Translations under genes and position numbers: made by a program
Virus record (IMG/VR): IMGVR_UViG_3300013125_000053
Location: 1-22,081 of that record
DNA: 22,081 nt
Reading direction: 5' to 3' (one strand)
Source: a virus
Notes under the pieces: generated by a model
What the model saw: the letters and a program-made list of their open reading frames with translations, nothing else
Database searches by the model: none
Told to the model about the DNA's origin: nothing
Part shown: positions 181 to 17,518 of the stretch, in pieces
Layout: each line of letters starts with the position of its first letter
How positions within the stretch are numbered: the first letter of the stretch is position 1

Positions 181-513
181 ATGCCAGACTTAAATGAATT
201 GCTACAACAACTCGAACCCTACATTGTAGTTCGAGCCCAAAAGTCCAGTATTGCTGGTATGGACTGGGAAGACATTGCCCAGGAGCTTCGGATTGAGGTC
301 TGGAAAAAATACGACAAAATAATCAACGGTAAATCAAAGCCCACCACATTTACTTTTAAGTTGTTTCGCAACAAGGAGATCTCACTTTGGCGCAGATCAA
401 AACCAAAAATGGATTCAATCGAATGTTTGCTCACAGAGCCAGGAGAGTGCAGATTTGATTTGGACGTTCTAGAGTCAATTTGTAAATATGAGGATGAAAG
501 GGCGTGTAACTAG
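181..513 (+). CDS. Small sigma-70 region 2-like protein
   Basis: The product has 110 residues. Residues 28-45 (DWEDIAQELRIEVWKKYD) and 57-72 (F-T-F-K-L-F-R-N-K-E-I, then WRR) follow the region 2 pattern of sigma-70/ECF factors: an acidic DxEDxxQE helix, a VW-containing helix, then a basic helix ending in RR. No region 4 DNA-binding domain follows, so if this is a sigma factor it is a minimal, region-2-only one. The C-terminus is acidic and ends in Ala-Cys-Asn encoded by a motif repeated elsewhere in the window. It sits 3 bases before the small terminase gene. There is no clear Shine-Dalgarno sequence before the ATG. Alternatives are a DNA-binding packaging accessory protein or a degenerate sigma homologue without promoter activity. 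The resemblance was judged by eye only. Confidence 0.5.
   Translation: MPDLNELLQQLEPYIVVRAQKSSIAGMDWEDIAQELRIEVWKKYDKIINGKSKPTTFTFKLFRNKEISLWRRSKPKMDSIECLLTEPGECRFDLDVLESICKYEDERACN
502..513 (+). repeat. GCGTGTAACTA motif, copy 1
   Basis: This is one of four copies of an 11-base motif, here GCGTGTAACTAG. It overlaps the last four codons (Ala-Cys-Asn-stop) of the sigma-like gene and ends 3 bases before the small terminase start. TGTAACTA is close to the T4 late promoter element TATAAATA (6 of 8 positions). A promoter role is inference. Confidence 0.4.
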
Positions 514-516
514 AAT

Positions 517-921
517 ATGGCAACAATCAAACAAAAAAGAACGGTAGCAATACTCCTAGAAAACCCCAGAAAATCAGTCTCAAGCGCGATGAGGGAGGCT
601 GGTTATTCTTCGGAAACGGCGAAAGTTCCGAGTGATCTTACTAACTCCGCTGGCTGGGCTGAATTGATGGACAAGTTCTTGCCAGACGAGGAACTCATCA
701 GAGTTCACACTGAAGGACTGAGAGCGACCAAAAAACAGTATAACGGCAAGGAGACCGTAGAAGATCCCGACTATGCGATACGCGAGAGGTATCTTGAGCT
801 CGGCTACAAGGTTAAAAAGAAAATCAACAACAATCTTGAGCTTACCGGCAAAGACGGCAAGGATTTGAAGTTTGAGGTTGTATATACCAATGAGAATAAT
901 TCTACATCCGAAACAAAGTGA
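517..921 (+). CDS. terS: Terminase small subunit (TerS)
   Basis: The small terminase subunit recognises the phage packaging site and hands DNA to the large subunit. The protein has 134 residues, usual for the family. Residues 5-37 form a helix-turn-helix-like stretch with the typical 'SVSSAMREAGYSSETAK' pattern of phage TerS. A central helical oligomerisation region follows, with 'DPDYAIRERYLELGYKVKK' near residues 83-101; DPxxAxRxxYLEL is common in podovirus and siphovirus TerS. It lies between the sigma-like gene and the large terminase, and its last 32 bases overlap the large terminase start. The stop is TGA, which argues against TGA recoding. The assignment rests on both motifs and position. 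Confidence 0.8.
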   Translation: MATIKQKRTVAILLENPRKSVSSAMREAGYSSETAKVPSDLTNSAGWAELMDKFLPDEELIRVHTEGLRATKKQYNGKETVEDPDYAIRERYLELGYKVKKKINNNLELTGKDGKDLKFEVVYTNENNSTSETK

Positions 922-2170
922 AATTGCTCAATCCAAAGCGAGATTCAAAGTTGTTCGTTGCGGACGCAGATTCGGAAAAACTTATTTAGCTGTCACAATG
1001 CTGATTGCAAATGCAATGGAAACACCGGGAAAGTATTGGTTTATCGCTCCGTACTATGGTCAGGCTAAAGACATTGCTTGGCAGATGTTGAGTAAGTTCA
1101 TACCGGAGGGAGTAATCGCTTCAAAAAACGAAACGGAGCTTTCGGTCGAACTTCGCAATGGATCGTCAATAGTTTTGAAGGGGGCTGACAACCCCGACCG
1201 ATTAAAGGGTGTTGGGCTAAATGGCTGTATCCTTGACGAGTATGCGTTTATCAAACCGTTCGTCTGGGAAGAAGTGATCAGGCCGATGCTTTTTGACACT
1301 CAAGGCTGGGCGATGTTTATCTCTACTCCGCAAGGGTATAACCATTTCTACAGATTATGGGAGAGCACGTCCGGTAAGGCTGATTGGGAGAGATTCTACG
1401 CCACAACTTACGATAATCCTCACATCACCAAAGAAGAAATTGACGAGGCTAAAGCCTCGATGAGCGAAGAGAGATTTGCGCAAGAAATTATGGCCGACTT
1501 CGCTCAGTTTGAAGGGCAAATCTACAAGGACTTCCGCAGAGAGAGAAATGTAGTTAAATCCTTCGAAATACCGGCGAACTGGAACAGATACCGCACAATC
1601 GATCTGGGAGTGAATGATCCAACCGCTTGTCTTTGGATCGCTCAAGACGCTGATAAGAATGTCTATATCTACCGAGAATATTACGAGAGCAACCGAGCAA
1701 CCGAAGATCACGCTGAGGATATATGTTTTATGAGTTCAAAAGAAATTTATCGCGGGACGATTTTTGACCATCACGGCCTAGGAAAGCAGTTGATCATCGA
1801 TTATAACCGTCTGGGACTTAAAGGAACTGAACACAAAGAACATCGCATTATCTCTGGAATTACGAGAATACAGGAACTATTAAGATTAAATTCTGCTGGT
1901 AAGCCGCAACTGTTTGTTTTTGAAAATTGCCTCAACACAATATTTGAATTTGAGAACTACCAGTGGGATTTGAAGCGACAAAACAGAGAGTTAAATTCTG
2001 GTGAAAAACCACTCGACTATGCTAATCATTGTTTGGACGCATTAAAAAACTGGGCAATGACTTACTACTACACTAAAACCCCGACAGATTCAGAGATTAA
2101 AGAGCGTCGAGAACGCCGAGAGACGAGAAAGGCTAATATATATAAAGTCAGTAGTCTCACCGGATATTAA
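890..2170 (+). CDS. terL: Terminase large subunit (TerL), ATPase and nuclease
   Basis: This is the packaging motor, which cuts concatemeric DNA and drives it through the portal. The N-terminal ATPase shows a Walker A GRRFGKT at residues 25-31 and a Walker B CILDE with D116 and E117, followed by a 'FISTPQGYNHFY' coupling motif. The C-terminal RNase H-like nuclease has D238 (TIDLGVNDPTA), D293 (IFDHHG) and D383 (HCLDALKNW), the expected acidic triad. The length, 426 residues, is normal. I chose the ATG at 890 because a GAGG lies 9-12 bases upstream and homologues begin close to the 'HPKQ' stretch; a TTG at 872 would add six residues. The frame overlaps terS by 32 bases. A copy of the GCGTGTAACTAG motif starts 2 bases after the stop. 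Confidence 0.93.
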   Translation: MRIILHPKQSEIAQSKARFKVVRCGRRFGKTYLAVTMLIANAMETPGKYWFIAPYYGQAKDIAWQMLSKFIPEGVIASKNETELSVELRNGSSIVLKGADNPDRLKGVGLNGCILDEYAFIKPFVWEEVIRPMLFDTQGWAMFISTPQGYNHFYRLWESTSGKADWERFYATTYDNPHITKEEIDEAKASMSEERFAQEIMADFAQFEGQIYKDFRRERNVVKSFEIPANWNRYRTIDLGVNDPTACLWIAQDADKNVYIYREYYESNRATEDHAEDICFMSSKEIYRGTIFDHHGLGKQLIIDYNRLGLKGTEHKEHRIISGITRIQELLRLNSAGKPQLFVFENCLNTIFEFENYQWDLKRQNRELNSGEKPLDYANHCLDALKNWAMTYYYTKTPTDSEIKERRERRETRKANIYKVSSLTGY

Positions 2171-2172
2171 AA

Positions 2173-2184
2173 GCGTGTAACTAG
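2173..2184 (+). repeat. GCGTGTAACTA motif, copy 2
   Basis: This copy lies outside any reading frame, directly after the terL stop and 37 bases before the portal start. Being non-coding while identical to the coding copies, it argues for a function at the DNA or RNA level. A leader carrying an ACAGGCC element follows, as in copy 4. Confidence 0.4.
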
Positions 2185-2197
2185 ATAACAGCATTAA

Positions 2198-2213
2198 CCA
2201 ACAGGCCAGTTGG
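2198..2213 (+). promoter_or_regulatory. Small hairpin with CAGGCCAG element before the portal start
   Basis: CCAAC at 2198-2202 pairs with GTTGG at 2209-2213 around the loop AGGCCA. It lies 7 bases upstream of the GTG start of the portal gene, where a ribosome would bind. The octamer CAGGCCAG (2202-2209) recurs before two other genes at a similar distance. An effect on translation is inference. Confidence 0.3.
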
Positions 2214-2220
2214 GAATTAA

Positions 2221-4377
2221 GTGAAGAATGATCTTGAGATCAAAGAACCAGAACTAACCTACAATCCTTCAAAAGCAGACAAAAAAGTCCTTGATTATGT
2301 TCGAGACCGAATTTATGATATGAATTTGACTCGACAAAATCATAATCTCGAAACCGATTGGGACAAATGGACTAAACAGTGCGAACCAAGCGAAGCGGAG
2401 AGAGGGACTGACCTACACATCAAGAACCCGTCAAAAATAAAGAAGTCTCTCACTCGTGAGGCTGTTTTTGGCATTTTGGCGATGACGGTGTCTAGGAACA
2501 ACGAAGTTCAGCTCATTATGCAGTCTGAGAACGACAATAAGTTGGCTCCAGTATTTCAGAAACTATCTGACCATCTCTCTTATGTTTCGAAAGAAACTGT
2601 AATCAAACTTAAAAACTATCTTACAACTATTATGTTGGGCACTGGTGTCAGAAAGAGAATATATCGCTGCGACACCAGAAAGATTAAAGAGATCATCAGT
2701 TATGATCCCGAAACAGAGAATATTGAATACAAGGAAACCACAGTCAAGGACTATGATGACGCTGATTTAATTGATGTTGATCCCCGAATGTTCTACTGGG
2801 ACGAGAGAGCAACTTCACACGATGATATGCGCTACTGTGCCGAGCGCAAGATTGTCCCTTATTCCTCGTTTTTAGCTGAATATCCAATTGAAAAATATCC
2901 TAATTCTAAATACGTCCAGGCGGGAAGTTGGATTTGGGGAACACAAGATGAGAAGCGCCAAGAGCCGATCTTTACCAATATTGGTCAGAATGATGTCGAG
3001 GTTTGGGAATTTTGGCATAAGGTCAAGGATATGAGAGTTCTGATCGCCAATGGAGTTTTACTTCAAAATATTCCAATCCCCTATCGCCATAAGCAATTGC
3101 CCTACACAATCTCGGTCTTCCAGACGAGGGATGCTAAGCGTCTTGATGGTATTGGTATTCCTGAATTAGTTGAACACGATCAAGCGCTCTTGGATACACT
3201 CCTTAACCTCACCGTGGACTGGATGAAGTTAATGCTCAATAAACCGATTTTAGAGTCATCCGGTGACGAAATGGAGGGCGAGGGCGATGTGATCGAATTA
3301 GAAGCTGGTAAGAGAATCACCGTCTCCGATGTCAATAATTTTAAGTTCTTCGATATCCCTAATATTGATCAGTCGATCTTTGAAGGAATCGACAAAGTCG
3401 AACAGAACGCCAAAAAGAAAGTCGGTGTTGATGATCCGATGTTCGGAGTCAAGACTGGCGGCACAGCAACTGAAAACGCTATCGCCGCTCAAGCAACTAA
3501 GCAAAAAATTGATCTCTTTTTCAAGCTCCTCGAAGAGGATGTTGATGTTCGTGATGAGTGGTTGAAGTTAAATATCATCCAGCAGTTCTACTCACAACCA
3601 GAAAAAATGAATCCGATTTTAGGTGAGGATGGTAAACAGATGATGGATGAGAACAATCAGCCGATGATGGAGCCGCAATACCGTTCTCTGCCGATTGGAC
3701 TCAAGCAAGGTGAGAATGAGTTTGGCGAGACAGAATTTAGCGAGAAAATGGGCGCTTACTTTACCCTCTCGCCCGAAGCTCTTGGCGTGAAAGATGATAA
3801 ATTTGCTCAATTCACTGTCCGAGTGGCTTCACGCTCAACACTGCCAATCTCTAAGGAACTCCGACAGCAAAAATGGAATGAATTTTTGAAAACGATTAAC
3901 TCGATACCAGAGTTTGTCCAATTAGCCGACTGGAAAAAACTGTGGCAAAAGACGGGAGAAATAAACGAGTTTGATGCTGAAGAGTTTAGCGCCGAACCTA
4001 TTGAGGACAACTTAACAAAACTGGCAGAAGAAGAAAACTCAAGAATGATGAATGGCGAGAATATCCCAGCAACTCAGGGATCCAATGAACAGCACACCGC
4101 TATCCATATAGCTTTGGCTGACTCAACTGACTTTGACCAACTCTCCCCAGAAATACAGCAAGTCATAGTCAAACACGCTCAAGGAGAAGTGGCTGAACAG
4201 CGAATGAATGAGGGTCAGCAGACACTTCAAGCCGCACAAAATATGAATATGCAGAAAAATATGGACAACGAAAAATTTAATCAGCAGATGGCGCTTAAAG
4301 GTGCGCCACAGGCAACCCCGTCAGTAGCACAGACTGCCTCGGCCGGTGTGCCTGTAAATATTGGTAAAGGAGTTTAA
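2221..4377 (+). CDS. Portal protein
   Basis: This is the dodecameric ring at one capsid vertex through which DNA enters and leaves and to which the tail attaches. At 718 residues it has the size of large portals of the podovirus type. Visible signs are an N-terminal charged helical region, a 'DVDPRMFYWDERA' stretch near residues 185-200 typical of portal wing domains, a central helical stem, and the 'GTATENAIAAQATKQK' motif near residues 415-430 seen in many portals. The C-terminal ~80 residues are rich in Gln and Met, suiting a barrel-like helix. It starts with GTG behind a poor Shine-Dalgarno sequence and a small hairpin. Its stop overlaps the next start (TAATG), so it is probably translationally coupled to the GroES-like gene. 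Position after terL supports the call. Confidence 0.85.
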   Translation: MKNDLEIKEPELTYNPSKADKKVLDYVRDRIYDMNLTRQNHNLETDWDKWTKQCEPSEAERGTDLHIKNPSKIKKSLTREAVFGILAMTVSRNNEVQLIMQSENDNKLAPVFQKLSDHLSYVSKETVIKLKNYLTTIMLGTGVRKRIYRCDTRKIKEIISYDPETENIEYKETTVKDYDDADLIDVDPRMFYWDERATSHDDMRYCAERKIVPYSSFLAEYPIEKYPNSKYVQAGSWIWGTQDEKRQEPIFTNIGQNDVEVWEFWHKVKDMRVLIANGVLLQNIPIPYRHKQLPYTISVFQTRDAKRLDGIGIPELVEHDQALLDTLLNLTVDWMKLMLNKPILESSGDEMEGEGDVIELEAGKRITVSDVNNFKFFDIPNIDQSIFEGIDKVEQNAKKKVGVDDPMFGVKTGGTATENAIAAQATKQKIDLFFKLLEEDVDVRDEWLKLNIIQQFYSQPEKMNPILGEDGKQMMDENNQPMMEPQYRSLPIGLKQGENEFGETEFSEKMGAYFTLSPEALGVKDDKFAQFTVRVASRSTLPISKELRQQKWNEFLKTINSIPEFVQLADWKKLWQKTGEINEFDAEEFSAEPIEDNLTKLAEEENSRMMNGENIPATQGSNEQHTAIHIALADSTDFDQLSPEIQQVIVKHAQGEVAEQRMNEGQQTLQAAQNMNMQKNMDNEKFNQQMALKGAPQATPSVAQTASAGVPVNIGKGV

Positions 4378-4676
4378 TGTTTCAGGCCACAACAGGCAAT
4401 TTGATCCTAAAACCAACCGAAAAAGAAATTAAGACCGAATCAGGGCTGTTCATCGCTAGTGATTCAGCCGAAATCTCTCGTTCGATCCGAGGCGAGGTAA
4501 TTGCGACCGGCGGCAAGAAGGTTCTAGGAAATCAAATTGTAAATATGGAAGCAAAAGTTGGTGACACCGTGCTTTTTGACACATATAAATCATCAGAACT
4601 TACTTTTGAGGGGAAAGTTTATTACAAGATCGAAGAAGATAAAATCTTCGGGATCATACTAAAAGCGTGTAACTAA
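4377..4676 (+). CDS. GroES-like co-chaperonin (Cpn10)
   Basis: The 99-residue protein matches the Cpn10 pattern along its whole length. The N-terminal strand is 'NLILKPTEKE', in place of the usual 'DRVIVKR'. The mobile loop spans about residues 16-38, with S22-G23-L24-F25-I26 in place of GG-IVL, the hydrophobic tripeptide that docks on GroEL. Then come 'RGEVIATGG' (38-46), 'VGDTVLFDTYKSSEL' and a C-terminal 'YYKIEEDKIFGII' strand. The likely role is to form a folding chamber with host GroEL for a bulky phage protein such as the capsid protein, as T4 gp31 does. It sits between portal and scaffold, with AAAGGAG 5 bases before the ATG. Partner specificity is inference. Confidence 0.85.
   Translation: MFQATTGNLILKPTEKEIKTESGLFIASDSAEISRSIRGEVIATGGKKVLGNQIVNMEAKVGDTVLFDTYKSSELTFEGKVYYKIEEDKIFGIILKACN
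4665..4675 (+). repeat. GCGTGTAACTA motif, copy 3
   Basis: This copy encodes the Ala-Cys-Asn end and the start of the stop codon of the GroES-like gene and lies 2 bases before the next ATG. The flanking AAAA before the motif is shared with copies 2 and 4. Confidence 0.4.
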
Positions 4677-4677
4677 T

Positions 4678-4944
4678 ATGAGCTACTCAAAAAGACAACT
4701 TGAGGATTTGGAATCGCTCCAAAGTCACAGGGGTTATGCCGTTTTATTACTAGAGCGGGAGAGAGTAGCGAAGCAGACATTAGTCAAGAATTCGCAGGCT
4801 AAAAATCGTGACCTTGTCTCTAAGGAGACAATCATTCACGAATCTGCAATCGAACAAATAAGAGAGAACAACGGTTTTTTGGCTGGAATAGACTCGATGA
4901 TTAAGTTGGTCGAGACAGCCAGAGAAAAAAGATTAAAACAATAG
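4678..4944 (+). CDS. Small helical protein of unknown function
   Basis: The 88-residue product is not recognised. It is predicted by eye to be almost wholly alpha-helical and highly charged, with hydrophobic positions at coiled-coil spacing (LEDLESLQSHRGYAVLLLE, then IRENNGFLAGIDSMIKLVE). Small helical proteins of this kind are common just after the portal in short-tailed phages, but no function follows from that. It starts one base after the GroES-like stop with no Shine-Dalgarno sequence of its own apart from the upstream coding sequence, so it probably depends on translational coupling. The stop is TAG, directly followed by a large hairpin. Confidence 0.65.
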   Translation: MSYSKRQLEDLESLQSHRGYAVLLLERERVAKQTLVKNSQAKNRDLVSKETIIHESAIEQIRENNGFLAGIDSMIKLVETAREKRLKQ

Positions 4945-5000
4945 GATGTTTGGAGTTTCGGTTGATTTCGGGCCTGTTTTCAACCGAAGCACTGAACATC
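4945..5000 (+). promoter_or_regulatory. Long RNA hairpin between packaging and capsid genes
   Basis: A perfect 9-base inverted repeat, TTCGGTTGA (4957-4965) and TCAACCGAA (4980-4988), is nested within AGT/ACT and GATGTT/AACATC (4945-4950 and 4995-5000). The whole forms a stem of about 18 pairs with small internal loops and a 14-base apical loop. There is no T-run after it, so it is not a normal intrinsic terminator. It could be an RNase III-type processing site, an mRNA stabiliser or a protein-binding site separating the two gene blocks. Confidence 0.5.
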
Positions 5001-5012
5001 TTAAAAGGCTCC

Positions 5013-5041
5013 TTGACAATTAAATAAAGTTAAAAAACAAT
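5013..5041 (+). promoter_or_regulatory. Sigma-70-type promoter for the capsid genes
   Basis: A perfect -35 box, TTGACA (5013-5018), is followed by a 17-base AT-rich spacer and AACAAT (5036-5041), which matches four of six -10 positions. It lies about 60 bases before the scaffold gene and just after the hairpin. Host RNA polymerase could use it to boost scaffold and capsid expression. It has not been tested; the weak -10 box is the main doubt. Confidence 0.45.
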
Positions 5042-5103
5042 CTTTGACCGCAAAATTTAGTATTTATGCCTAACTCCACAAGGACTGGCAGTAAAGGATT
5101 CAA

Positions 5104-5883
5104 ATGGACAAAACCACTCCAACTTCTCCCGTCTCAGGCACAGGAGAATCGAGCGCAACCGGCGACAACGGTGAACTTGAGAACGATACTCAAGGTCAAA
5201 ACGAAGGCGATGACGATCAAACGGATGTCTCGGACTACTTAGGCTCAGAGGACGATAACACATCTAAAATAGAGGAAGACGGTAGCTTCAAAAAGCGCTA
5301 CGCTGATTCTTCGAGAGAAGCCCAACGCCTTGCAAAAGAAGTCGAGGCAAAACAGAAAGAAATTGACGATTGGGTTCAGTTTGTCGAGTCTGACCCAGAG
5401 CTTGCAGAAGCCGTCAAAAATAAAACCGGCAAACCGTTTGGTAAGGAAGTAGAGAAGTTGACCCAGCTTGAAACACGGCTGGCTAACATCGAAAAAAAAG
5501 AACGAGAATTGACGATCAAATCATTTGAATCTGACAAAAAAGCTCTTGGTTTCGTCTTTAATCATGATGTTAGAAGGCAAATTGGTGAGATCGCAAAAAA
5601 CTTGGAAAGCGTAGATGTCCCATACGAGGAAGCCCTTGAAATTGCCTATATCCGTCTAAACAAAACCGGAATAGTCAAACAAGCGACTGAATCTGGTAAA
5701 AAACAAGCATTTGCTCAATCCAAAGTCAACTCTGAAGCTACCTACACTACTTCAAACAGTGCCCAAAATGGAACGCAATCCTTTAATCTCTCCAAAGAAG
5801 AACAGGAATATATTAAAAATATGCCTGGTACTCCCGAAGAGAAGAAAAGGTTTATCGAATTTCACAAAAGTAAACAAATTTAA
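5104..5883 (+). CDS. Scaffolding protein
   Basis: The 259-residue protein has the usual scaffold build. Residues 1-60 are acidic and low-complexity (Gly, Ser, Asp, Glu). Residues about 65-150 form a long charged helix or coiled coil ('SREAQRLAKEVEAKQKEIDDW', then 'LTQLETRLANIEKKERELT'). The C-terminus is basic and helical ('TPEEKKRFIEFHKSKQ'); in known scaffolds this end binds the capsid protein. It lies just before the cement-like and capsid genes, the standard place. AAAGGA lies 5 bases before the ATG. No capsid protease motif was seen in it or nearby, so the scaffold probably leaves or is degraded by other means. Assignment by build and position, not by sequence motif. Confidence 0.72.
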   Translation: MDKTTPTSPVSGTGESSATGDNGELENDTQGQNEGDDDQTDVSDYLGSEDDNTSKIEEDGSFKKRYADSSREAQRLAKEVEAKQKEIDDWVQFVESDPELAEAVKNKTGKPFGKEVEKLTQLETRLANIEKKERELTIKSFESDKKALGFVFNHDVRRQIGEIAKNLESVDVPYEEALEIAYIRLNKTGIVKQATESGKKQAFAQSKVNSEATYTTSNSAQNGTQSFNLSKEEQEYIKNMPGTPEEKKRFIEFHKSKQI

Positions 5884-5898
5884 TAGAAAGTGACTACT

Positions 5899-6354
5899 AT
5901 GAGCGTATATGGATTTAAAGTTCACAAGCTCAATGGATTTACCGAAAGCATCGAAAAAGTCGTCAAAAGCGGCTCAACCATCACCAAGGGCGATCCAATT
6001 TCCCTTGAGGATGACACTGCTATTGTCACCACGGCTGCTTTGCCAATTCTTGGAACATACCAAGGCGTTGACACTGTTGTTGGTGACGGGGCAGAGAAAA
6101 TTTCAATCCTTTGCGGTTCTGATATTGAGTATATCGTTGATAATGACAACGATACCAACACATTTGCTGGCGCAGGTTATGGCGCAGGCAAAGCATACAA
6201 CATTACAGGCACGACTGGCGCTGTATTGGTCGATACAAGTTCCGCCTCCGCAACGACTGCCGCTTTGAATCTGGTCTGCGTTAATGAAGCACCAGACACC
6301 TCAGATACTTCTCGCGGTGTTTTCAAAGTTAATAAGGCCAACTCACAGTATTAA
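5899..6354 (+). CDS. Capsid cement/decoration-like protein
   Basis: The 151-residue protein is rich in Thr, Ser, Gly, Ala and Asp and is predicted to be all beta. The 'TITKGDPISLED' stretch, a middle 'PILGTYQGVDTVVGDG' and a late 'ALNLVCVNEA' recall the small beta-barrel cement proteins (DUF2190 type) that brace HK97-type capsids. Its place directly before the major capsid gene supports this. I prefer the ATG at 5899: the upstream GAAAGTGA is a fair Shine-Dalgarno match at the right distance, and the same TAGAAAGTGA arrangement precedes the ATG of the capsid gene. A GTG at 5890 would add three residues. Other small beta-rich head proteins remain possible. Confidence 0.55.
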   Translation: MSVYGFKVHKLNGFTESIEKVVKSGSTITKGDPISLEDDTAIVTTAALPILGTYQGVDTVVGDGAEKISILCGSDIEYIVDNDNDTNTFAGAGYGAGKAYNITGTTGAVLVDTSSASATTAALNLVCVNEAPDTSDTSRGVFKVNKANSQY

Positions 6355-6373
6355 ACTGTAGAAAGTGAACAAA

Positions 6374-7339: not shown

Positions 7340-7352
7340 TAATTAAAGGCTT

Positions 7353-7380
7353 GGGGCGTGCCTTAACAAACGCCCCCTCT
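7353..7380 (+). terminator. Hairpin terminator after the capsid gene
   Basis: GGGGCGT (7353-7359) pairs perfectly with ACGCCCC (7370-7376) around a 10-base loop, and CTCTTACTT follows. The stem is strong but the T-tract is weak and broken, so it may act as a partial terminator that sets a high capsid-to-downstream ratio or as a 3' stabiliser. Confidence 0.5.
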
Positions 7381-7418
7381 TACTTGAGACTTTTCCGAGT
7401 CAATATAGGTATAGAGAA

Positions 7419-7435: not shown

Positions 7436-10090
7436 ATGAATCTGGATAATAAAAAGTATACTGCCCTCAAAGGCGTATATGTAAAAGGCACTGGTAATAC
7501 AGGAGAAGGAAGCGGTGCGATAAGACTGCCGAACCTGACTGACGCGCCTATCTCAACCGCAACAGAATATGGACTTTATGTCAAGAACGGTTCGCTAGTC
7601 TTTTATAATGCTGGTTCCGAAACAACCGTAGGATCGTCTGGTGGCGGAGTTGCCTCACTCGATTCACTCTACGACCTTGATAAAGCCTTAACGCTTGATG
7701 ACGCTTCGTTGACTTTTGCAGGGACGCACGCAACCAATGATGTTATTACCATCACCAATGCCACTGGTACAGGTGATTGTTTGCAAATTACCAACTCTGG
7801 GACAGGTAAAGATATCCAAGGCACGGCAGGTTGGGACATTACCAAAGCCGGTGTGGTTAGTGCTACTGGTCTCACAATGGGTGATGACAAACCAATTACC
7901 CTTGGTGCTACTTCTGATGCTACGATCCAATGGGTAAACGCTTCATCATTTACTGATTTTCACGGTGCGGTCAACTTCGATGGTGCGATAACCGGTGAAT
8001 CTACTGTCACAGCCGTTTTGGCTGGGGTAGCTACTGGTACAGCTGTTGTTACCTTAACCGCCGGTGATTTAGTTTTGTCTGATGGTGTAGCTTCGATTAC
8101 GCAGTCCGGTGACGCTTCAGCTTTGACAATCGTTGCTGATTCGCAAGTTGCGACTAACGTTGTCGACATTAACGCTGACGGTCTAACAACCGGCTCGATT
8201 CTTCATCTTGATACGACTGCGGCTGGTTTTACTGGTAAGTTCGTTGATTGTTACAACGGTGCGGCAACTGTAATGAGTGTCGGTCTCGATGGTGCAACCA
8301 CAATCGCTACCACGGCTAACTCAACTGTCGGTCTCAAAGTTACTGGTATTCAGACTGCTGAAGATTTGGTTGAGCTTACTTCATCTGGCGTTACGGCAAC
8401 TGGACAGGGTGTTCTTTTGATCAATTCTTCTGGCGCTTCGGCTGACGGATCGGCTCAAATCAGAATCGCCCCCTCTGGTTCGCCTGTAGAAGGTTCGGCT
8501 GGTATTAAATTTGTTGGTGCTTCAAAAGTAATGCAAGCTCTTAACCTTGACGGTGACTCGGTTGATAACTCAGTTGCCAAGATTAACGGTGGTGGTGCTT
8601 TAGCCGCGAACAAGGCGGTTCTTGAGGTTCTGGCTGACGGAACACCGGCGGCTAACACAGCTTCTGCTGTAAGAGTTGATGTGACCGGGATTACGGCAAC
8701 CAATAATCCTTACGCGGTGAGAGTTTTGGCTAACGGTAAGGATGCTGGCGGTCTGTATATTGATTCTGACTCAGCAACTCTTTCGGCTGTCGCTATTAAC
8801 TGCGGTGGCGCAATTGCAACTGGAAAAGCTGCTTTTGCTTTAACAGCTGACGGCACGCCTGCAGCGGCTGATTCATACCTTGCTTTGTTTGACTATACCG
8901 CAATGACATCTACCAACAATCCAGTAGCGGTAAAGATTGCTTCCAAAGGCACGGCTCAAGCACTTGAGGTTACTTCAACTGGTGCTGGCGCTGATAATAA
9001 AGGGGTTCTCTCAATCACGACTTCGGGTGCAACGGCGGCCGGTGGTTCGGTTCTCCGAGTTACTGGCACGGGAACACCCGCAGCGGCAACTTCTTACTTG
9101 GTTGATTTCGATTATTCTGGCGCCACGATGACGAATAACCCGATTGGAGTTTACGTCAACAACGGCGGCTCAACTGCTGAAGCATTGAGTGTTGTCTCGA
9201 CCGCTGCTACCAACACTGGTGCGGTGACGATTACCAACAATGCTTTAACGACCGGTACTGGTTTGCTCGTTACCTCTTCAGGCACTGTCGTTACAACCGG
9301 CGAGATGATTTCAGTTGTTGCTAACTCAGCCACAACTTCAACCGGTTTGGTGAGAGTATCTGGTACGGCGCTAACTGACGGTTTTGCAATGGAACTGACT
9401 GGTGGCGGTGCAAATGCGACTGCTTCTGGTGGTGTTCTTAACTTAGCCGCTGGTGCGGCGACTGACGGTTCAGCGCTAAAAATAACAACTTCTGGTGTTT
9501 ACGCTGGCACAGTTGGGGTTGTCGATATTAACGCCGCTTCGGCGACTACTGGCACGATCGTTGATATTGGCGCAGCCGGTCTGACTGAAGGTACTGGTCT
9601 AAAGATCAACGCCGTTGAAGCTACTTTGACCACTGGTAAATATCTTGACTGTTACGATGGTGCCGCTTCTGACTTCTCGGTGGAGAAATACGGTGCAACG
9701 GTCATTGCTGGTAACGCTTCTGGAACAGCCGCCCTTACCCTTACTGCTGGTGATGCGACTTTGACTTCAGGCAATGTCAATCTGACCAACGGTTATATCA
9801 AGGCTGGCGCACAGGCTATTTCAAACGCTAATACTGCCATTGACGTGACCCACACCCTAACAACGATTGCCAACAACGCCGCTTCCACTCATGCACTGGC
9901 TGATGGTGTTGCTGGGCAAATTAAGATTATTACTTGTATCACTTACACCGGTGACGCTGTCATTTCCCCGGCCAACTTCCATAACGGTACGACAATTACC
10001 CTAAATGCTGTCGGAGATAGCGCAACGCTTATTTTCGCGGGTACAAAATGGGCGGTGATAGGAACAGGTGGCACAACTGCAATAGCTTAA
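7436..10090 (+). CDS. Very large repetitive beta-rich virion protein (fibre or capsid-appendage candidate)
   Basis: The product has 884 residues and is almost free of charged helices, dominated by Gly, Thr, Ala, Ser, Val and Asn in short beta-strand repeats, as in beta-helical fibre shafts. Residues about 375-590 hold three imperfect copies of a ~72-residue unit. Two related modules flank them: a 'TGKFVDCYNGAA' module near 270 and 'TGKYLDCYDGAA' near 730, each with a 'GTAxxTLTAGD' strand close by. The C-terminus, with 'DAVISPANFHNGTTITLNAVGDSATLIF', is the globular end seen on many phage fibre-like proteins. The N-terminus has 'AIRLPNLTDAPISTATEYGLYVKNGSLVFYN', a common phage structural opening. 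Lying right after the capsid gene, it may decorate the head or be a second fibre; the function is not proven. Confidence 0.6.
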   Translation: MNLDNKKYTALKGVYVKGTGNTGEGSGAIRLPNLTDAPISTATEYGLYVKNGSLVFYNAGSETTVGSSGGGVASLDSLYDLDKALTLDDASLTFAGTHATNDVITITNATGTGDCLQITNSGTGKDIQGTAGWDITKAGVVSATGLTMGDDKPITLGATSDATIQWVNASSFTDFHGAVNFDGAITGESTVTAVLAGVATGTAVVTLTAGDLVLSDGVASITQSGDASALTIVADSQVATNVVDINADGLTTGSILHLDTTAAGFTGKFVDCYNGAATVMSVGLDGATTIATTANSTVGLKVTGIQTAEDLVELTSSGVTATGQGVLLINSSGASADGSAQIRIAPSGSPVEGSAGIKFVGASKVMQALNLDGDSVDNSVAKINGGGALAANKAVLEVLADGTPAANTASAVRVDVTGITATNNPYAVRVLANGKDAGGLYIDSDSATLSAVAINCGGAIATGKAAFALTADGTPAAADSYLALFDYTAMTSTNNPVAVKIASKGTAQALEVTSTGAGADNKGVLSITTSGATAAGGSVLRVTGTGTPAAATSYLVDFDYSGATMTNNPIGVYVNNGGSTAEALSVVSTAATNTGAVTITNNALTTGTGLLVTSSGTVVTTGEMISVVANSATTSTGLVRVSGTALTDGFAMELTGGGANATASGGVLNLAAGAATDGSALKITTSGVYAGTVGVVDINAASATTGTIVDIGAAGLTEGTGLKINAVEATLTTGKYLDCYDGAASDFSVEKYGATVIAGNASGTAALTLTAGDATLTSGNVNLTNGYIKAGAQAISNANTAIDVTHTLTTIANNAASTHALADGVAGQIKIITCITYTGDAVISPANFHNGTTITLNAVGDSATLIFAGTKWAVIGTGGTTAIA
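8560..9190 (+). repeat. Three imperfect ~216-bp tandem repeats inside the large beta protein
   Basis: Three units share 'GGA', 'DGTPAA' and 'TNNP' landmarks. The DGTPAA-equivalent residues are 400, 471 and 544, giving spacings of 71 and 73 residues (213 and 219 bases). The DNA has diverged while the protein pattern holds, so these look like old duplications kept by selection rather than fresh slippage. Confidence 0.7.
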
Positions 10091-10300: not shown

Positions 10301-10312
10301 TAGACTGTCAAA

Positions 10313-10337: not shown

Positions 10338-10369
10338 CGGGCAGAAAAATTATTTAAGAAAGGAAAATT

Positions 10370-10555: not shown

Positions 10556-10556
10556 A

Positions 10557-10880: not shown

Positions 10881-11766
10881 TGAAATTAAAAATTTAGAAT
10901 CCAAGAAACTTGAACTTCAGGGCAAGGTTGATCAACTTATTACCGAGTTTAACTATCGGACAACTCAAGCAACAAAACAGATTGAGAAACTTTTAGAGTT
11001 CGACCTTAAAATTGCTCAAAAAGAAAAGCAACTTTCAGATGACAAAGACCGACTGATTGCCGAACGAAAAGCGCTTGAAATCGCGACCGAGAAATATGTG
11101 AGGGCAGAAAATAGACTAGCTGATACGAAAAAGAATTTAGGCGACGAAAACTCGAAGCTGGATCTTCGTTCCAAAGAACTTGATCGAAGTAGTGCTGATT
11201 TAAATGAAGAACTCCTAAAACTACAGCGAGAGCAAGAAAGTGTCGCAAAATCGATTCTGGAGGCAAATAAGCGTGATAACGCCCTAACCGAGCGGGAAAA
11301 AAGTCTTAATTCTAAAGAGCAATCTCTTGATGACCGCGCTGGCACACTCGATCAGGCTGAGAAAACACTAAAGGACAAAACCTCTTCGCACGAATTGGAA
11401 ATCTATAAACTTGAATCAGAGAAGATAAAATTTAACGATCAAGTTAAGCTCGAAGACAACCGCCGTTCAGCTCTAATTGAAGCAGAGGACAAATTGCGAA
11501 AAGACAAGGATGATCTCGAAAAAAAATCAGTCGAACTTGTAAAGAAACGGACGGAATATGCTCTTGAGTTAGATGAACAAAAAAACCGAGAAGAAAAGCT
11601 GACCAAGCAGTCGCTAGTCAATTCTGACAAGGAAAATGAGCTTGAAACATTTAGAAAAACCTTGAATGAGCGAGAACTTGATTTGGATGTCCGTGAAGCG
11701 GAACTGCTTGACAAAACCAAGAAACTAAAGGTAAAAGAGCTGACTTTGAACGCCAGAGAGGACTAA
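10870..11766 (+). CDS. Long coiled-coil protein
   Basis: The 298-residue product is one uninterrupted coiled coil from about residue 5 to 290, with no globular domain, signal peptide or membrane segment. In the middle, leucines fall every seven residues in 'LNSKEQSLDDRAGTLDQAEKTL'; Glu, Lys, Arg and Asp fill the outer positions. It overlaps the gene before by 11 bases and abuts the one after, so it is made with the neck and tail proteins. A rod of this length would reach roughly 40 nm if fully extended, fitting a fibrous virion part such as a neck whisker, or a length or assembly factor. No family is recognised; the role is inference. Confidence 0.6.
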   Translation: MSNDEIKNLESKKLELQGKVDQLITEFNYRTTQATKQIEKLLEFDLKIAQKEKQLSDDKDRLIAERKALEIATEKYVRAENRLADTKKNLGDENSKLDLRSKELDRSSADLNEELLKLQREQESVAKSILEANKRDNALTEREKSLNSKEQSLDDRAGTLDQAEKTLKDKTSSHELEIYKLESEKIKFNDQVKLEDNRRSALIEAEDKLRKDKDDLEKKSVELVKKRTEYALELDEQKNREEKLTKQSLVNSDKENELETFRKTLNERELDLDVREAELLDKTKKLKVKELTLNARED

Positions 11767-12117
11767 ATGGCTACAGCCGAGAAGGTAAAGATTGTTGATA
11801 CAACCGGGAATAAGGTTGTGACCATTGAGACTAAAGGCTCATCGAATGTCTTAGCCGTTGAGATTGTTGACTCAGATGGAAATTTAATTGACAGCTTTAA
11901 TTCGAGTAATTATTCCACTATAACAACAGACGACGCTGACGGAAATATCGAATATGTCGGCTGGGCACTACCGGAAAACCAAAACAACACTGGATCAGCT
12001 GTTTGGCGCATAGCCAAGCTAACATATACGTCTTCGGGAAATCCCATAATTAAATTTGCTGACGGAATGGATTCATTTACTAAAACTTGGGACTCAAAAG
12101 GAGATTATGTCTATTAA
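11767..12117 (+). CDS. Small beta-rich structural protein
   Basis: The 116-residue product resembles a small domain common in short-tailed phage structural clusters. Its signature is 'GNIEYVGWALPENQ', then 'AVWRIAKLTYTSSGNPIIKFADG' and a final 'FTKTWDSKGDYVY'. The ATG directly follows the previous stop, and the last 11 bases overlap the next gene. Residues 1-45 are two or three strands repeating 'VDTTGNKVVTIET'. A virion role, in head, neck or tail, is likely from context. Exact function unknown. Confidence 0.6.
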   Translation: MATAEKVKIVDTTGNKVVTIETKGSSNVLAVEIVDSDGNLIDSFNSSNYSTITTDDADGNIEYVGWALPENQNNTGSAVWRIAKLTYTSSGNPIIKFADGMDSFTKTWDSKGDYVY

Positions 12118-13444
12118 ATTAAATTTAATTCTGGAAAATTCTCGTCTACGAGTTCGCAATCGAGAGCTTTTAGACACAAATAATTTAACTTATTTAACAG
12201 AGCCAGCTTCGGCGGCTTCAGGAACTTTGACTGTAGAGAACATCTCTGGTGGTGCTGTTTCTGGTTACATCATTCTTGGTGAAATCGGATCAGAAAAGAC
12301 CGAGATTGTTCAAGTTCACGCTGCAACTGCCCCAGCTGGTACTACAATAACCCTAGCGGCTAATACCGTTTTTGCTCATCCCTCAGATAGTCCAGTTTAT
12401 TTTGTCTCTTACAATCAAATTGAATTCTCCAGAGCAACATCGTCTGGCGGAGTAAAGGCGGTTTTAGCGACGGTTGCTGTTACCCCAGATCAGGAGTTTA
12501 CAGGGTACGCCGATACTAATACTACCGGCTATGCTTACGCTCGGGCAAAAAACTCAACAACAACAACTTATTCGGATTATTCTGATGAACAGGTTTATTC
12601 ATCATTAACTTTCAATTCTATCGGGGTGATTATTGACGCAGTTTTTAATCGAGCCAATGAGGAAACGGAAGCAAAAATCACTCGCAAAGAGGTCTTAACT
12701 GATTATATCTGGGGCTTTATCAATAAAGTTTCTGAACTTCGGACTAAATGGAAACACGAGGAATCAGATCAGGATAACTCAAACACAACTTCGCTTGGAG
12801 GTGAGACTTTTTCTCTACCGAGCGATATTAAAACATCTGACCAAAAATCTATTCAATGCCTCTCGATTGAGGGCTATGAGCCTCTAAAATACATCTCGAT
12901 CACGGACTGGCGCAAAAAGATCGCAGGATTAGCTCGTTCAACCCTAGATGGAGCTGTTTTGATTGGGGCGACTGAAGTTGATCTGATGGACGCTTCTAAT
13001 TTTGCCGAGGCTGGGACTGGTTACATTTCGGGAGACACTTTCACTTGGACTGGCAAGACCGATAATCAACTAACAGGGGTCTCGGGAATTTTAGCTCACG
13101 ATGACGGTTCAGTCGTCTATCAATCTGATGCTTGCGGACTACCGGAATACTATACGATCCAAAATGAAACCGGGCGACTTTTTGCCGCTCCAGATGACGA
13201 CTATGACGGCATTCCTCTCGTAATTGATTATTACAAAGAAACCACCAGACCAGACTCAGAAAATGACACTTTACCAGTGAAATTCGTTGAGGCTTGCAAA
13301 GACTATTGTTCAATGAGGGTGGCTGAAAAAAAAGAAGATTGGCAAGCAGTTGACAGGTTTGAGAAAAAATCTACCGCTGGAATTATCCAAGTGATTAGAA
13401 ACGAACGAATCGGCGATCAAAAATACCTAACCTCAAAGGAATAA
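12107..13444 (+). CDS. Probable head-tail adaptor/neck protein with beta-domain additions
   Basis: The 445-residue protein is modular. Residues about 30-105 form a beta domain with 'YIILGEIGSEKTEIVQV', residues 110-165 an Fn3-like domain ending 'YAYARAKNSTTTTYSDYSDE', residues 170-280 a helical region with 'WKHEESDQ', residues 285-345 a second beta insert related to the first, and the C-terminus has 'LPEYYTIQNETGRLFAAPDDDYDGIP' followed by a helical 'ACKDYCSMRVAEKKEDW'. The last part is the pattern of phage neck/adaptor-type proteins. AAAGGAG lies 5 bases before the ATG at 12107, which decides the start; an upstream ATG at 12056 in the same frame has no such site. Neck function is inferred. 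Confidence 0.55.
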   Translation: MSIKLNLILENSRLRVRNRELLDTNNLTYLTEPASAASGTLTVENISGGAVSGYIILGEIGSEKTEIVQVHAATAPAGTTITLAANTVFAHPSDSPVYFVSYNQIEFSRATSSGGVKAVLATVAVTPDQEFTGYADTNTTGYAYARAKNSTTTTYSDYSDEQVYSSLTFNSIGVIIDAVFNRANEETEAKITRKEVLTDYIWGFINKVSELRTKWKHEESDQDNSNTTSLGGETFSLPSDIKTSDQKSIQCLSIEGYEPLKYISITDWRKKIAGLARSTLDGAVLIGATEVDLMDASNFAEAGTGYISGDTFTWTGKTDNQLTGVSGILAHDDGSVVYQSDACGLPEYYTIQNETGRLFAAPDDDYDGIPLVIDYYKETTRPDSENDTLPVKFVEACKDYCSMRVAEKKEDWQAVDRFEKKSTAGIIQVIRNERIGDQKYLTSKE

Positions 13445-13445
13445 A

Positions 13446-14894
13446 ATGGCTAGATATGTCCAACCGTCTTACACTTCGGGAGTCCAGCTCAAAACGAATA
13501 AATTTATCGTTCGCCCAGATGAACTTATCTTAGCTAAAAATGTCTATAATGATATTTTAGGTTCGTGGAAAACCCGCCTAGGGTCAACTAAAGCCGGAGG
13601 GACGCTTCAAAGTGGTAAAGACATTACCGGTCTTTTTGGCGACCGAACAACCGGAGGCAAACATCTAGCAGTTGTTAATAATTCCGGAGACACAAACTCA
13701 ATTCTAAAGTGGAATAACTCTGGAACTTGGACTGCAGTTTCTGGTGCCACCTCGCTTCCGGCTGATTGTAATGTCAATTTTGCCTCATTTCTTGATCAAA
13801 CCTATATTTTTGGAAAAAACGATTCTAATACTTTTATGACGACCGCTTCTCTTTCGGGCACGACCTACTCGCAAGAGTCGTCATTCCCTAAAGCGGCTTA
13901 TGGCGGGGTATTTTTTGACCAACTCTATTTAGCTGATTGTGAAGTTGATGGGGTGAGATATGCCAATCGAATTTATTATGGATCGATTCCAACTTACTCA
14001 AGCGGTTGGAGTTTCAGCTTTACTCCGTCAACGGATTACTTACAAATTGATACCGATGATGGCGATTATCTAACTGGTGTCCAAAAAAGTTATGGTCAAT
14101 TTCTGGCTTTCAAAAATTACTCAATCCACTCAATCGATCTAAATCAAAATGTTATTCAGGTTGATGGCACTGGTTGCACTTCGCCTCGCTCGATAGTGTC
14201 TGATGACGACAAAAATGTTTACTTTTTCCACTACTCGAACAAGAAAAAGGGCGTTTATTGCTGGGACGGGACAGGGGCAAAAAAGAAATCACGGGCGATT
14301 GATCCAATCATTGATGGCTGTTCTGGCTCTGGTGTAATCGGTGGAATCAACAATGATCATATTTATATGTATATCGGAGATGTCACGCTAAATAGTGATG
14401 TAGCAGAATACTTTGGTCTTGAATCAATGAGCAATGTTTTACTTGACTATTCGATTCTTGATGACTTATGGACTATTCATACCTTGCCTGTCGATATTAC
14501 CGTGATGGCACATTACAACAACGTTCTCTATTTTGGTGACAATACAGGAATTGTTTACCAGTGGAATTTGGGAACTTCGGATAATAACTCAAATATCGAG
14601 TCAATAATTGTTACTCATAACTTTTTCGGTCAATTCCCGGCCGAATACAATAAACGCAAGACTTTTCAGAATTTGATCGTAAATATGCACAGAACTGGTC
14701 GAGCGGAGGCTTTTTACTCGATTGATAATGGGGACTGGAAACCACTCGGACAGTTAAAGGATAAGGTCAACGATTTCTCGATCAACGGCAAGGGTTATGG
14801 AATAAAAGTTAAAATTGCCTCTAACTACGGCACTTTCATTTTTGAGGGGTTAGAGATCGAATATTCAGTCGAAAAAACATTGAGGAGTAAATAG
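13446..14894 (+). CDS. Beta-propeller tail protein (P22 gp10-like tail hub / stabilisation protein)
   Basis: The 482-residue protein is all beta with repeating blade-like segments: 'GKHLAVVNNSGDTNSILKW', 'DQLYLADCEVDG', 'DTDDGDYLTGVQKSYGQFLAFK', 'NVYFFHYSNKKKGVYCWDG' and 'NNVLYFGDNTGIVYQWNLG'. The run 'TDDGDxLTG...LAFKNYSI...SPRSIVSDDDKNVYF' is characteristic of gp10-like packaged-DNA stabilisation or tail-nozzle proteins, and P22 gp10 is of similar size. It would close the portal-adaptor channel and carry the fibres. AAAGGA lies before the ATG, and the next gene starts directly after the stop. Match judged by pattern only; a related tail-tube nozzle (T7 gp12-like) is the alternative. Confidence 0.6.
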   Translation: MARYVQPSYTSGVQLKTNKFIVRPDELILAKNVYNDILGSWKTRLGSTKAGGTLQSGKDITGLFGDRTTGGKHLAVVNNSGDTNSILKWNNSGTWTAVSGATSLPADCNVNFASFLDQTYIFGKNDSNTFMTTASLSGTTYSQESSFPKAAYGGVFFDQLYLADCEVDGVRYANRIYYGSIPTYSSGWSFSFTPSTDYLQIDTDDGDYLTGVQKSYGQFLAFKNYSIHSIDLNQNVIQVDGTGCTSPRSIVSDDDKNVYFFHYSNKKKGVYCWDGTGAKKKSRAIDPIIDGCSGSGVIGGINNDHIYMYIGDVTLNSDVAEYFGLESMSNVLLDYSILDDLWTIHTLPVDITVMAHYNNVLYFGDNTGIVYQWNLGTSDNNSNIESIIVTHNFFGQFPAEYNKRKTFQNLIVNMHRTGRAEAFYSIDNGDWKPLGQLKDKVNDFSINGKGYGIKVKIASNYGTFIFEGLEIEYSVEKTLRSK

Positions 14895-17084
14895 ATGTAT
14901 ACCGATGAGGGCTACACAACAAGTTTGGTCAGAGAACCAGTTTTAGATAGACGGTCGCTTTTGGCACGACCAGAGGTATTTGGGGTGATCAATTACCCAC
15001 CGCAACAGACTCAGAATGAAGTCACGCTCATCATCCCGCCGAAATCCTTGAATATAGATAAACTGGTTATCAATAAGATCGGGATCAATGATTATATCTC
15101 ATCAAATGTCTTCGTAGCCGGATCGAGTGGCTGGCGGATTCACGGTAACGGCGATGCCGAATTTAACAACGTAGTCGTCCGAGGCGATGTTACGGCTACT
15201 ACCGGTCGGATCGGTGACTGGTCGATTACCACCGATGGGATTTATTACGATGGCACTGGGACACCTTACATTAAAACGGCCGCTACGGTCGAGGTGGGTT
15301 CCACTGGAGTCATCTTTGATAAAGATGGTATTCGCGGATATGATTCCGTTTTGGGCAACACATTTAATCTGCCTACGGATGGTTCTGCACCGACTTTTTC
15401 TTCTGGAATTATAAACTCAACAATTTTTGAGATAAATACTAATGCTGTCTTGAGAACGTCGGATACTGTTGGAGATGGAACGGTTAATTCTGCTGGGGTA
15501 TTGATAAATAATACAGGCTTTTATGCCTGCGGAGTAAGCCAAACTCCAGCTACAGCGAATGTAAAAATTCTAGCTACGGGGTCGGCAACTTTCAGTGGTA
15601 CAGTTACTGCAGTCGCGGGAGCTATTGGTGGATGGACTCTAGGCACAAATTCATTAACTACTGGCTCAGGTGCTACCACGGTTGGTTTGGATAATACTGT
15701 GACTGCGGGTGATGATGTCAGGATTTATGCAGGTTCGACAACTAAGACATCCGCTCCTTTCAGAGTAACTGAAGCCGGGGTTTTAACAGCAACCAACGCG
15801 ACAATTACCGGAACAGTCAATGCGAATGCAGGAGCGTTTACGGGTTCACTTACCTTGGGGGATGGATCTTCATCCTCGGGTGTGCTTACATTATCAATTG
15901 CCGATACCAAAGGTGATTGCTACATAGGGGCTGGTAAAACCGATTTTACTAATGTTCAAACAGGCTTTATTTTGGGACTCGACGACTCAGATTCAAATAA
16001 AGCAAAGTTTTATATTGGAAGTTCAACTAAATACCTTAATTGGAATGGAAGTGATGTGTCTGTTGTTGGCGGAACGATTACTGGTGGGACAATTCAAACT
16101 GCATCAAGTGGACAAAGAGTTGTTCTAAATAGTGCTGGGGTTAGTTTCTACCCACCTTCCGGTTCCGATTCAATTGGGTATATTAACAATTCTTCTGATC
16201 CGAATTCTTCGATCTTTTCAGCACGTGTTTTTTCAAATCAGAGAGCTTTATCCATTTGGAATTTATCAACAAGCGCGGTATCCATGCCTTTAACTTGGAT
16301 CATGAATGAAACGACAAATGCAGATTTTACTGGTGCGGAATTAGATATTGTTCGCCATATGACTTCGACTGACGATACTGCTAGGACTTCTTCTGGTTCA
16401 CTCGCTCTATTAACTCGATGCGGAGTTGATCGAACCCCTCCTGTGACTGAATCTAAAACTGGAAGTTTGTCTTTGACGGCATATACTGGGGTCTTTGGAT
16501 ATCAATCTATTTCTGTAGTCAATTATAAAGTTCAAATAGATGGAGATGGTGGTCCAAACACATTCAAATGGTCTGATGACGGTGGATCAACATGGGATGC
16601 GACTGGGGTAGAAATTACCGAAGATGGTATTGAGCTGAATAATGGTGTGATGGTAGGGTTTGATAATCTCACTGGGGGTGTCATCGGGGATTATTACACC
16701 TTTACAATGAGACCCAATACTTCATCTGGATATGTTTTGGATCTCGCCAATTATGATACTACTGCTGTTGTTATGCGAATAACTAGCGCTGACGATGACC
16801 CAATGTTTCCAGGAAGGAGAATAGATATTGAAGGAAATAAAGGTAATTGGTATGCCTTCTCGAACGGGGGCATTGAAGGTAAAGAAATTAGGGCAAGTGG
16901 GGATCTTGGGGGATTGACGAGCAAAAATTGCCTGACTAATGTATCTGACTTGACCGCAAATTCAACTGGAGTCGGAACAATAAAATTTAAAGGTACAACT
17001 GCTAGAGATAGTTCAGGTTTTATAAAAATTTATATTGGAACAACAGCATATTATATTCCGGTATTTAGCGCGATAACCGGATAG
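14895..17084 (+). CDS. Tail fibre / receptor-binding protein
   Basis: The 729-residue protein has an N-terminal attachment segment (residues 1-70, 'LARPEVFGVINYPPQQTQNEVTL'), then the 'GWRIHGNGDAEFNNVVVRG' motif (about 79-97) that marks the start of fibre shafts in many phage host-specificity proteins. It continues with beta repeats of the 'GTVTAVAGAIGGWTLGTNSL' and 'ATITGTVNANAGAFTG' type. A later Ig-like segment has 'KWSDDGGSTWDATGVEI', and the end is 'SGFIKIYIGTTAYYIPVF'. It follows the propeller protein without a gap; GAGGAG lies before the ATG. The second half is visibly richer in A+T than the first, which may mark exchange of the receptor-binding end. Likely role: adsorption to the host surface. 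Confidence 0.75.
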   Translation: MYTDEGYTTSLVREPVLDRRSLLARPEVFGVINYPPQQTQNEVTLIIPPKSLNIDKLVINKIGINDYISSNVFVAGSSGWRIHGNGDAEFNNVVVRGDVTATTGRIGDWSITTDGIYYDGTGTPYIKTAATVEVGSTGVIFDKDGIRGYDSVLGNTFNLPTDGSAPTFSSGIINSTIFEINTNAVLRTSDTVGDGTVNSAGVLINNTGFYACGVSQTPATANVKILATGSATFSGTVTAVAGAIGGWTLGTNSLTTGSGATTVGLDNTVTAGDDVRIYAGSTTKTSAPFRVTEAGVLTATNATITGTVNANAGAFTGSLTLGDGSSSSGVLTLSIADTKGDCYIGAGKTDFTNVQTGFILGLDDSDSNKAKFYIGSSTKYLNWNGSDVSVVGGTITGGTIQTASSGQRVVLNSAGVSFYPPSGSDSIGYINNSSDPNSSIFSARVFSNQRALSIWNLSTSAVSMPLTWIMNETTNADFTGAELDIVRHMTSTDDTARTSSGSLALLTRCGVDRTPPVTESKTGSLSLTAYTGVFGYQSISVVNYKVQIDGDGGPNTFKWSDDGGSTWDATGVEITEDGIELNNGVMVGFDNLTGGVIGDYYTFTMRPNTSSGYVLDLANYDTTAVVMRITSADDDPMFPGRRIDIEGNKGNWYAFSNGGIEGKEIRASGDLGGLTSKNCLTNVSDLTANSTGVGTIKFKGTTARDSSGFIKIYIGTTAYYIPVFSAITG

Positions 17085-17092
17085 CAGGCCAG
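17085..17092 (+). repeat. CAGGCCAG element before the membrane-anchored protein
   Basis: This is the third copy of the octamer, directly after the fibre stop and 10 bases before the GTG start at 17103. The following GAAAG is a weak Shine-Dalgarno sequence. Confidence 0.3.
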
Positions 17093-17102
17093 AAAGACAT
17101 AT

Positions 17103-17426
17103 GTGCGTAAAATTATTTCATTATTGATACTGTTCACGATTGCTTTTTCCTTTTTCTCAGGATACGCAATTAGTTTTTTCAAATACCAAAAATATCAACC
17201 GCTTGAAGAAGCAATGCAAAATATTGCAAAACACGAATATACTGATGATTACCAATGTTTGCAGTTTTCCCAAGACTTACAAAAAGAATTAAAGAATAAA
17301 GGCATTCATTCAAGCATAATTATTGTTAAACAGCTCGATAATTTACACGCAGTTGTAGGAGTGTGGTTCGAACCACAAACTGGCGAATACGCAGACGAAA
17401 CAGACTCTGTAAGAATTTACAAGTAA
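17103..17426 (+). CDS. Membrane-anchored transglutaminase/papain-like Cys-His protein
   Basis: The 107-residue protein begins with MRK and a hydrophobic stretch at residues 4-26, a signal anchor placing the rest outside the cytoplasmic membrane. The soluble part has 'YQCLQFSQDLQKELKNKGI' with C52 at a helix start, 'LHAVVGVWFEPQTGEY' with H82 on a strand, and E90. This C-helix, H-strand, acid-strand order is that of transglutaminase-like and related thiol peptidase folds. The start is GTG. The gene stands alone between fibre and ejection-protein genes, is much AT-richer than its neighbours, and ends in its own terminator, so it looks like an accessory (moron) gene. Possible roles are cell-wall or protein processing, lysis or superinfection exclusion; none is shown. 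Confidence 0.55.
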   Translation: MRKIISLLILFTIAFSFFSGYAISFFKYQKYQPLEEAMQNIAKHEYTDDYQCLQFSQDLQKELKNKGIHSSIIIVKQLDNLHAVVGVWFEPQTGEYADETDSVRIYK

Positions 17427-17456
17427 ATTCTTGTATTTATTTTATTGTATTTTTTG
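17411..17456 (+). terminator. Intrinsic terminator overlapping the end of the membrane-anchored gene
   Basis: AAGAATTTAC (17411-17420) and GTAAATTCTT (17423-17432) are perfect inverted copies; with a 4-base loop this gives a 9-pair AT-rich stem. A T-rich tail, GTATTTATTTTATTGTATTTTTT, follows in two runs. The stem overlaps the stop codon. Its low GC content makes it weaker than usual. Confidence 0.5.
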
Positions 17457-17507
17457 AAAGGAATTAAAAAAACAGTTATCTTTCCGGAATTAGAAATCAG
17501 CTAAAAA

Positions 17508-17518
17508 GCGTGTAACTA
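17508..17518 (+). repeat. GCGTGTAACTA motif, copy 4
   Basis: This copy is intergenic, 60 bases before the ACG start of the 22-residue-repeat protein and preceded by AAAA as in copies 2 and 3. A terminator hairpin begins 10 bases after it, within what would be the first transcribed bases if the motif is a promoter. Confidence 0.4.

Follow-up and report, generated by a model that had tools for sequence, protein, structure and literature searches.

In sigma factors, region 2 recognises and melts the −10 element of a promoter, and region 4 reads the −35 element. Promoters that depend on phage-encoded sigma factors are reported to be few and well conserved, to lie before structural genes, and possibly to overlap the 3′ ends of upstream genes (PMC4331800). 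The late and middle promoters of phiEco32, which has the ECF-like sigma factor gp36, and of phage 7-11 consist of a short single −10-type element, and structural genes are preceded by a small number of well-conserved copies of it (PMC4331800). The late promoters of T4 have a single 8-bp −10 box, TATAAATA, no conserved −35 element, and an AT-rich downstream sequence, and T4 gp55 is a very small, divergent sigma factor that has been modelled with region 2.1-2.4 (PMC2988020). Here, we analysed a 22,081-nt stretch of DNA from an uncultured phage, referred to as the window, that resembles these systems in combining a small, divergent ECF-like sigma candidate with a short single element, present in a few well-conserved copies before structural genes, that has no conserved −35 element and is followed by AT-rich sequence. 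The following features are relevant:

181..513, + strand, sigma-70 region-2-only protein of 110 aa (Pfam PF04542), candidate reader of the motif
502..512, + strand, motif copy 1, GCGTGTAACTA, at the 3′ end of the sigma-like gene (final codons plus stop); terS ATG at 517
517..921, + strand, probable terS, assigned by position only, without a convincing family match
923..2170, + strand, terminase large subunit (terL), start codon uncertain (phrog_2, E 1.3e-50)
2173..2183, + strand, motif copy 2, 2 bases past the terL stop and 37 bases ahead of the portal GTG
2221..4377, + strand, portal protein, GTG start (phrog_156, E 1.5e-6; 67% identity to the portal of the related contig L055)
4377..4676, + strand, GroES-like co-chaperonin (Cpn10, E 2.1e-15)
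4665..4675, + strand, motif copy 3, at the 3′ end of the GroES-like gene (final codons plus stop), with the next ATG at 4678
4678..4944, + strand, 88-aa helical protein behind copy 3, without a Shine-Dalgarno sequence
5013-5041, sigma-70-like site TTGACA-17-AACAAT, ahead of the capsid block at 5104
17508..17518, + strand, motif copy 4, intergenic, 143 bases ahead of the ejection-like gene
17528..17557, + strand, terminator-like hairpin with T6, directly behind copy 4 (−13.4 kcal/mol, z −4.7)
17662..19971, + strand, large coiled-coil, putative ejection-like gene behind copy 4

The order of genes is sigma-like, probable terS, terL, portal, GroES-like, 88-aa helical protein, probable scaffold, major capsid protein, tail, and ejection-like. 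An 884-aa low-complexity protein that is rich in Thr, Ala, Gly, and Ser and had no PHROG match is encoded at positions 7436-10090, after the capsid genes and before those for the tail.

An exact search of both strands of the window identified GCGTGTAACTA exactly four times, at 502, 2173, 4665, and 17508, always on the + strand and never on the − strand, and this bears out the four coordinates, and the claim of no further copy, in the original prediction. No copy arose in 100 dinucleotide shuffles of the window, and, overlapping words excepted, GCGTGTAACTA is the sole word of at least 11 bases with at least three copies there. Allowing up to two mismatches yielded five additional sites in the window, where 3.56 were expected in all; thus, there is no clear degenerate or graded family around the motif. 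For comparison, we examined 517 kb from 37 other phage loci; in 3 of these, at least four scattered places shared an 11-mer, and these cases involved repeat-rich genes (two) and a purine-rich word resembling a ribosome-binding site (one). Locus L075 carries the ribosome-binding-site-like word AGGATAAGGAAT four times (at 1650, 2539, 2841, and 18167).

Every copy is either intergenic or at the end of a gene, although such positions make up only 5.0% of the window; the associated p of about 6e-6 is post hoc and assumes independence as well as our own gene calls. The copies had been described as each heading a gene or gene block. Their placement at gene boundaries holds throughout, but three of them are tied more tightly to the 3′ end of the preceding gene than to the next start, touching the stop codon or following it within 2 bases. 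This fit to the upstream gene, together with the position of copy 4 directly ahead of the terminator-like hairpin, is what an RNA-level signal would provide, i.e., an endonuclease processing site or a 3′-end/termination element that parts the upstream message from the next. However, a strict 11-mer is unusual for RNA processing and termination sites, the copies shared no hairpin in the folds made, and Rfam gave no match; we consider this explanation rather unlikely. At the protein level, copies 1 and 3 encode Ala-Cys-Asn-stop and copies 2 and 4 are noncoding, as previously noted; because of the two noncoding copies, selection on the protein was rejected.

Copy 1 forms the end of a sigma-like gene (181-513), which the original prediction had overlooked. 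The product matched Pfam PF04542 (Sigma70_r2) with an E of 2.5e-6 and 27.6 bits (curated cut-off, 24) and a PHROG sigma family with an E of 4e-4. Its match to TIGR02937, an ECF sigma model of 165 positions, extends from position 3 to about 74-76. Because this match stops at position 74 of 165, the protein is predicted to hold region 2 and to be without region 4, which a complete ECF sigma factor would contain; profile searches of all six frames of the window and of the related contigs L052 and L055 gave no match to region 4 (PF08281, PF04545). By the yardstick of phiEco32 gp36, the sigma assignment does not appear weak, since this known phage sigma factor fits Sigma70_r2 less well (18.3 bits) than the 110-aa protein. 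AlphaFold models made with one and two input sequences were of low confidence (mean pLDDT, 40-42).

That the gene for a predicted region-2-only sigma factor ends inside copy 1 is the main support for a promoter, and we conclude that GCGTGTAACTA is probably a phage-sigma-dependent, −10-only late promoter element that is read by the 110-aa protein. A phage-specific −10-only promoter, as originally proposed, remains the best reading, although it is favoured here on other grounds, and the hairpin behind copy 4 and the closeness of copies 1 and 3 to start codons had not been taken into account. In the proposed mechanism, the host RNA polymerase core together with the phage sigma factor would read GCGTGTAACTA as the sole recognition element; region 2 would read and melt this −10 element, and, without region 4, a −35 box would be unneeded. 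Because the sigma factor seems to consist of region 2 only, a single −10 element with no −35 element and with AT-rich downstream sequence is expected. Copies 1 to 4 would initiate or enhance the transcription of, respectively, terS/terL, the portal gene, the head block that follows the 88-aa gene, and the ejection-like gene.

As expected of phage-sigma, −10-only late promoters, a single element recurs ahead of late genes, always on the same strand, and a conserved −35 element is absent. Identity among the four copies ends sharply at 11-15 bases. AAAA directly precedes copies 2, 3, and 4, in agreement with the three instances reported earlier, and a comparison of all four copies revealed no further shared upstream sequence. 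Likewise, the lack of a −35 box had been anticipated: neither a −35-like element nor upstream conservation was found. Downstream, the 15 bases after each copy are 67-80% AT versus 57% for the window, matching the AT-rich stretch described before. Extended −10 promoters for host sigma-70, unrelated to the phage sigma factor, would account for the 4 of 6 matches between TGTAAC and TATAAT. In addition, the terL-portal gap of L060, a distant relative, holds the sigma-70-like promoter TTGACA-18-TATAAT (read by eye); this also favours the phage-sigma reading, in that the gap becomes a plausible place for a promoter across the broader group. Nevertheless, no TTGACA-like hexamer is present at the right spacing upstream of the copies (best match, 3-4 of 6), and the exact conservation of GCG and CTA would be left unexplained, making host sigma-70 promoters improbable.

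The motif lies 4, 37, 2, and 143 bases from the next start codon for copies 1 to 4, respectively. Copies 1 and 3 are thus so close to ATGs that starts 6-8 bases after the motif would fall inside the genes, which argues against promoters at these sites. A promoter at copy 1 could be reconciled with this spacing if terS transcription were to begin at the AUG, giving a leaderless mRNA; for the 88-aa gene, the same arrangement would be less comfortable and marginal. Leaderless mRNAs are possible because neither terS nor the 88-aa gene has a well-placed Shine-Dalgarno sequence and their ATGs are 4 and 2 bases behind the motif; many other genes in the window have a strong Shine-Dalgarno sequence. 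These same two genes could point to a translation-level element ahead of start codons. The variable distances to the next start and the lack of any match between the motif and the anti-Shine-Dalgarno sequence make such an element extremely improbable.

Two further observations speak against promoter function. First, because the strong terminator-like hairpin with T6 lies directly behind copy 4, starting within 10 bases, a transcript from this copy might end at once. Transcription from a promoter here would run into the terminator within some 30 bases, barring read-through, antitermination, or a role of the hairpin as a 5′ stabiliser. Second, the capsid block at 5104 has the sigma-70-like site at 5013-5041 ahead of it and no copy of GCGTGTAACTA directly ahead. 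We also observed a very stable imperfect hairpin (4942-5003; −29.7 kcal/mol, z −6.7) in the stretch that separates the 88-aa gene from the scaffold/capsid block. It had no Rfam match and is possibly a processing or termination site.

Compared to described systems, the GCGTGTAACTA system is best called a variant of phage-sigma late promoters, judging from the sequence features. It differs from phiEco32 in that gp36 has 214 aa and matches positions 3-157 of the ECF model, whereas the sigma candidate in the window appears to have region 2 only. Also, the phiEco32 consensus, TAATGTATA, has just TGTA in common with GCGTGTAACTA. The promoters of phiEco32 and 7-11 were demonstrated experimentally, whereas those in the window are predicted from sequence. 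T4 has about fifty late promoters compared to four copies here, and its late transcription additionally involves gp33 and the gp45 clamp. The similarity to the T4 late promoter that was pointed out originally amounts to 2 mismatches in 8 bases in all copies (TGTAACTA versus TATAAATA); this count is correct, but the likeness is too loose to count, and the element is not a T4 box.

A different system with short oriented words is that of the cluster A mycobacteriophages, in which an asymmetric operator, or stoperator, is bound by a phage repressor at gene boundaries and blocks elongation. The stoperators of mycobacteriophage L5 are asymmetric short words that are oriented along transcription and lie in short intergenic gaps (PMC9283540), and all four copies of GCGTGTAACTA share this orientation and placement. 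However, the L5 system comprises over twenty sites plus a dedicated repressor, while the window has four sites in 22 kb and a sigma-like neighbour. Among the proteins scanned, which covered a minority of the small ORFs of this incomplete genome, none was recognised as a repressor or integrase, and a stoperator would leave the adjacent sigma-like gene unused. Stoperators are therefore quite unlikely.

Searches with terL, the major capsid protein, the portal, the sigma-like protein, and the TerL nuclease recovered only L052, L055, and distant contigs, and none of the distant contigs had a region-2-only sigma gene adjoining terL. No relatives were found among genome contigs, isolated phages gave no convincing relative of the sigma-like protein (E 0.01) or of the portal, and plasmids gave no portal relative. 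Of the related genomes, a search of which had been suggested, L052 carries copies 1-3, and L055 is without the 11-mer and has a 7-base core only. L052 is the same virus (99.97% identity over 14.6 kb), and its three copies therefore add little independent evidence; it reaches 1,646 bases further upstream, where there is no new copy of the motif.

In L055, the order is sigma region 2, a small ORF, terS-like, terL, portal, and GroES, and the sigma-terS-terL-portal-GroES order is conserved with the window by sequence comparison. The L055 sigma-like protein has 38% identity to that of the window and matches PF04542 with 41.9 bits. The full GCGTGTAACTA is absent from the 5.6 kb of L055. CGTGTAA occurs there a single time, in the terL-portal gap, i.e., at the place of copy 2 in the window. 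Because a run of seven also appeared in 548 of 20,000 shuffles of this gap (p 0.027), the CGTGTAA footprint is suggestive only as support for the motif. At the end of the L055 sigma gene, similarity to the motif was not significant. This comparison also bears on whether the copies are a recombination linker, i.e., a boundary sequence spread between junctions by modular exchange without a regulatory role, as identical short words at gene boundaries could suggest. Such an origin is very improbable given that the genes around the copies keep their order in L055 and are not shuffled, that L055 lacks the full word and has only the 7-base core, and that identity among the copies stops so abruptly.

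If the promoter reading is correct, the sigma-promoter pair would be near the lower size limit, with one domain and one 11-bp element. Such a pair would offer a direct test of how little of a sigma factor suffices for promoter-specific initiation and could serve in the laboratory as a compact orthogonal expression system. Moreover, it would suggest that another phage lineage arrived anew at the region-2-only solution of T4 gp55, starting from an ECF-like sigma factor. The more far-reaching proposal, a minimal late switch that consists of a 110-aa region-2-only ECF-like sigma factor, exact 11-bp promoters, and partly leaderless mRNAs in a lineage unrelated to T4, is conceivable but doubtful.

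Among viral contigs, AAAAGCGTGTAACTA was found in 44 stretches, roughly the number expected by chance; most contigs had one copy, and two others had two. A wider spread of the motif was rejected based on this count. An intergenic CGTGTAACTATTATA before a gene is common to the AT-rich phages L015, L017, L020, L023, L026, L027, L038, L041, and L044 and may be a late promoter of their own. The two longest CGTGTAACTATTATA contigs checked encode longer sigma factors of 255-260 aa, and we treated the resemblance to the motif in the window as coincidence or a parallel. Two additional observations concern L055. The terL gene (953-3193) appears to be split near its conserved C-terminal NHC(L/M)D site by an insert that is intein-like and overlaps an HNH-type ORF. 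Finally, the GroES-like co-chaperonin gene is located directly 3′ of the portal gene in both the window (4377-4676) and L055 (5354-5596).
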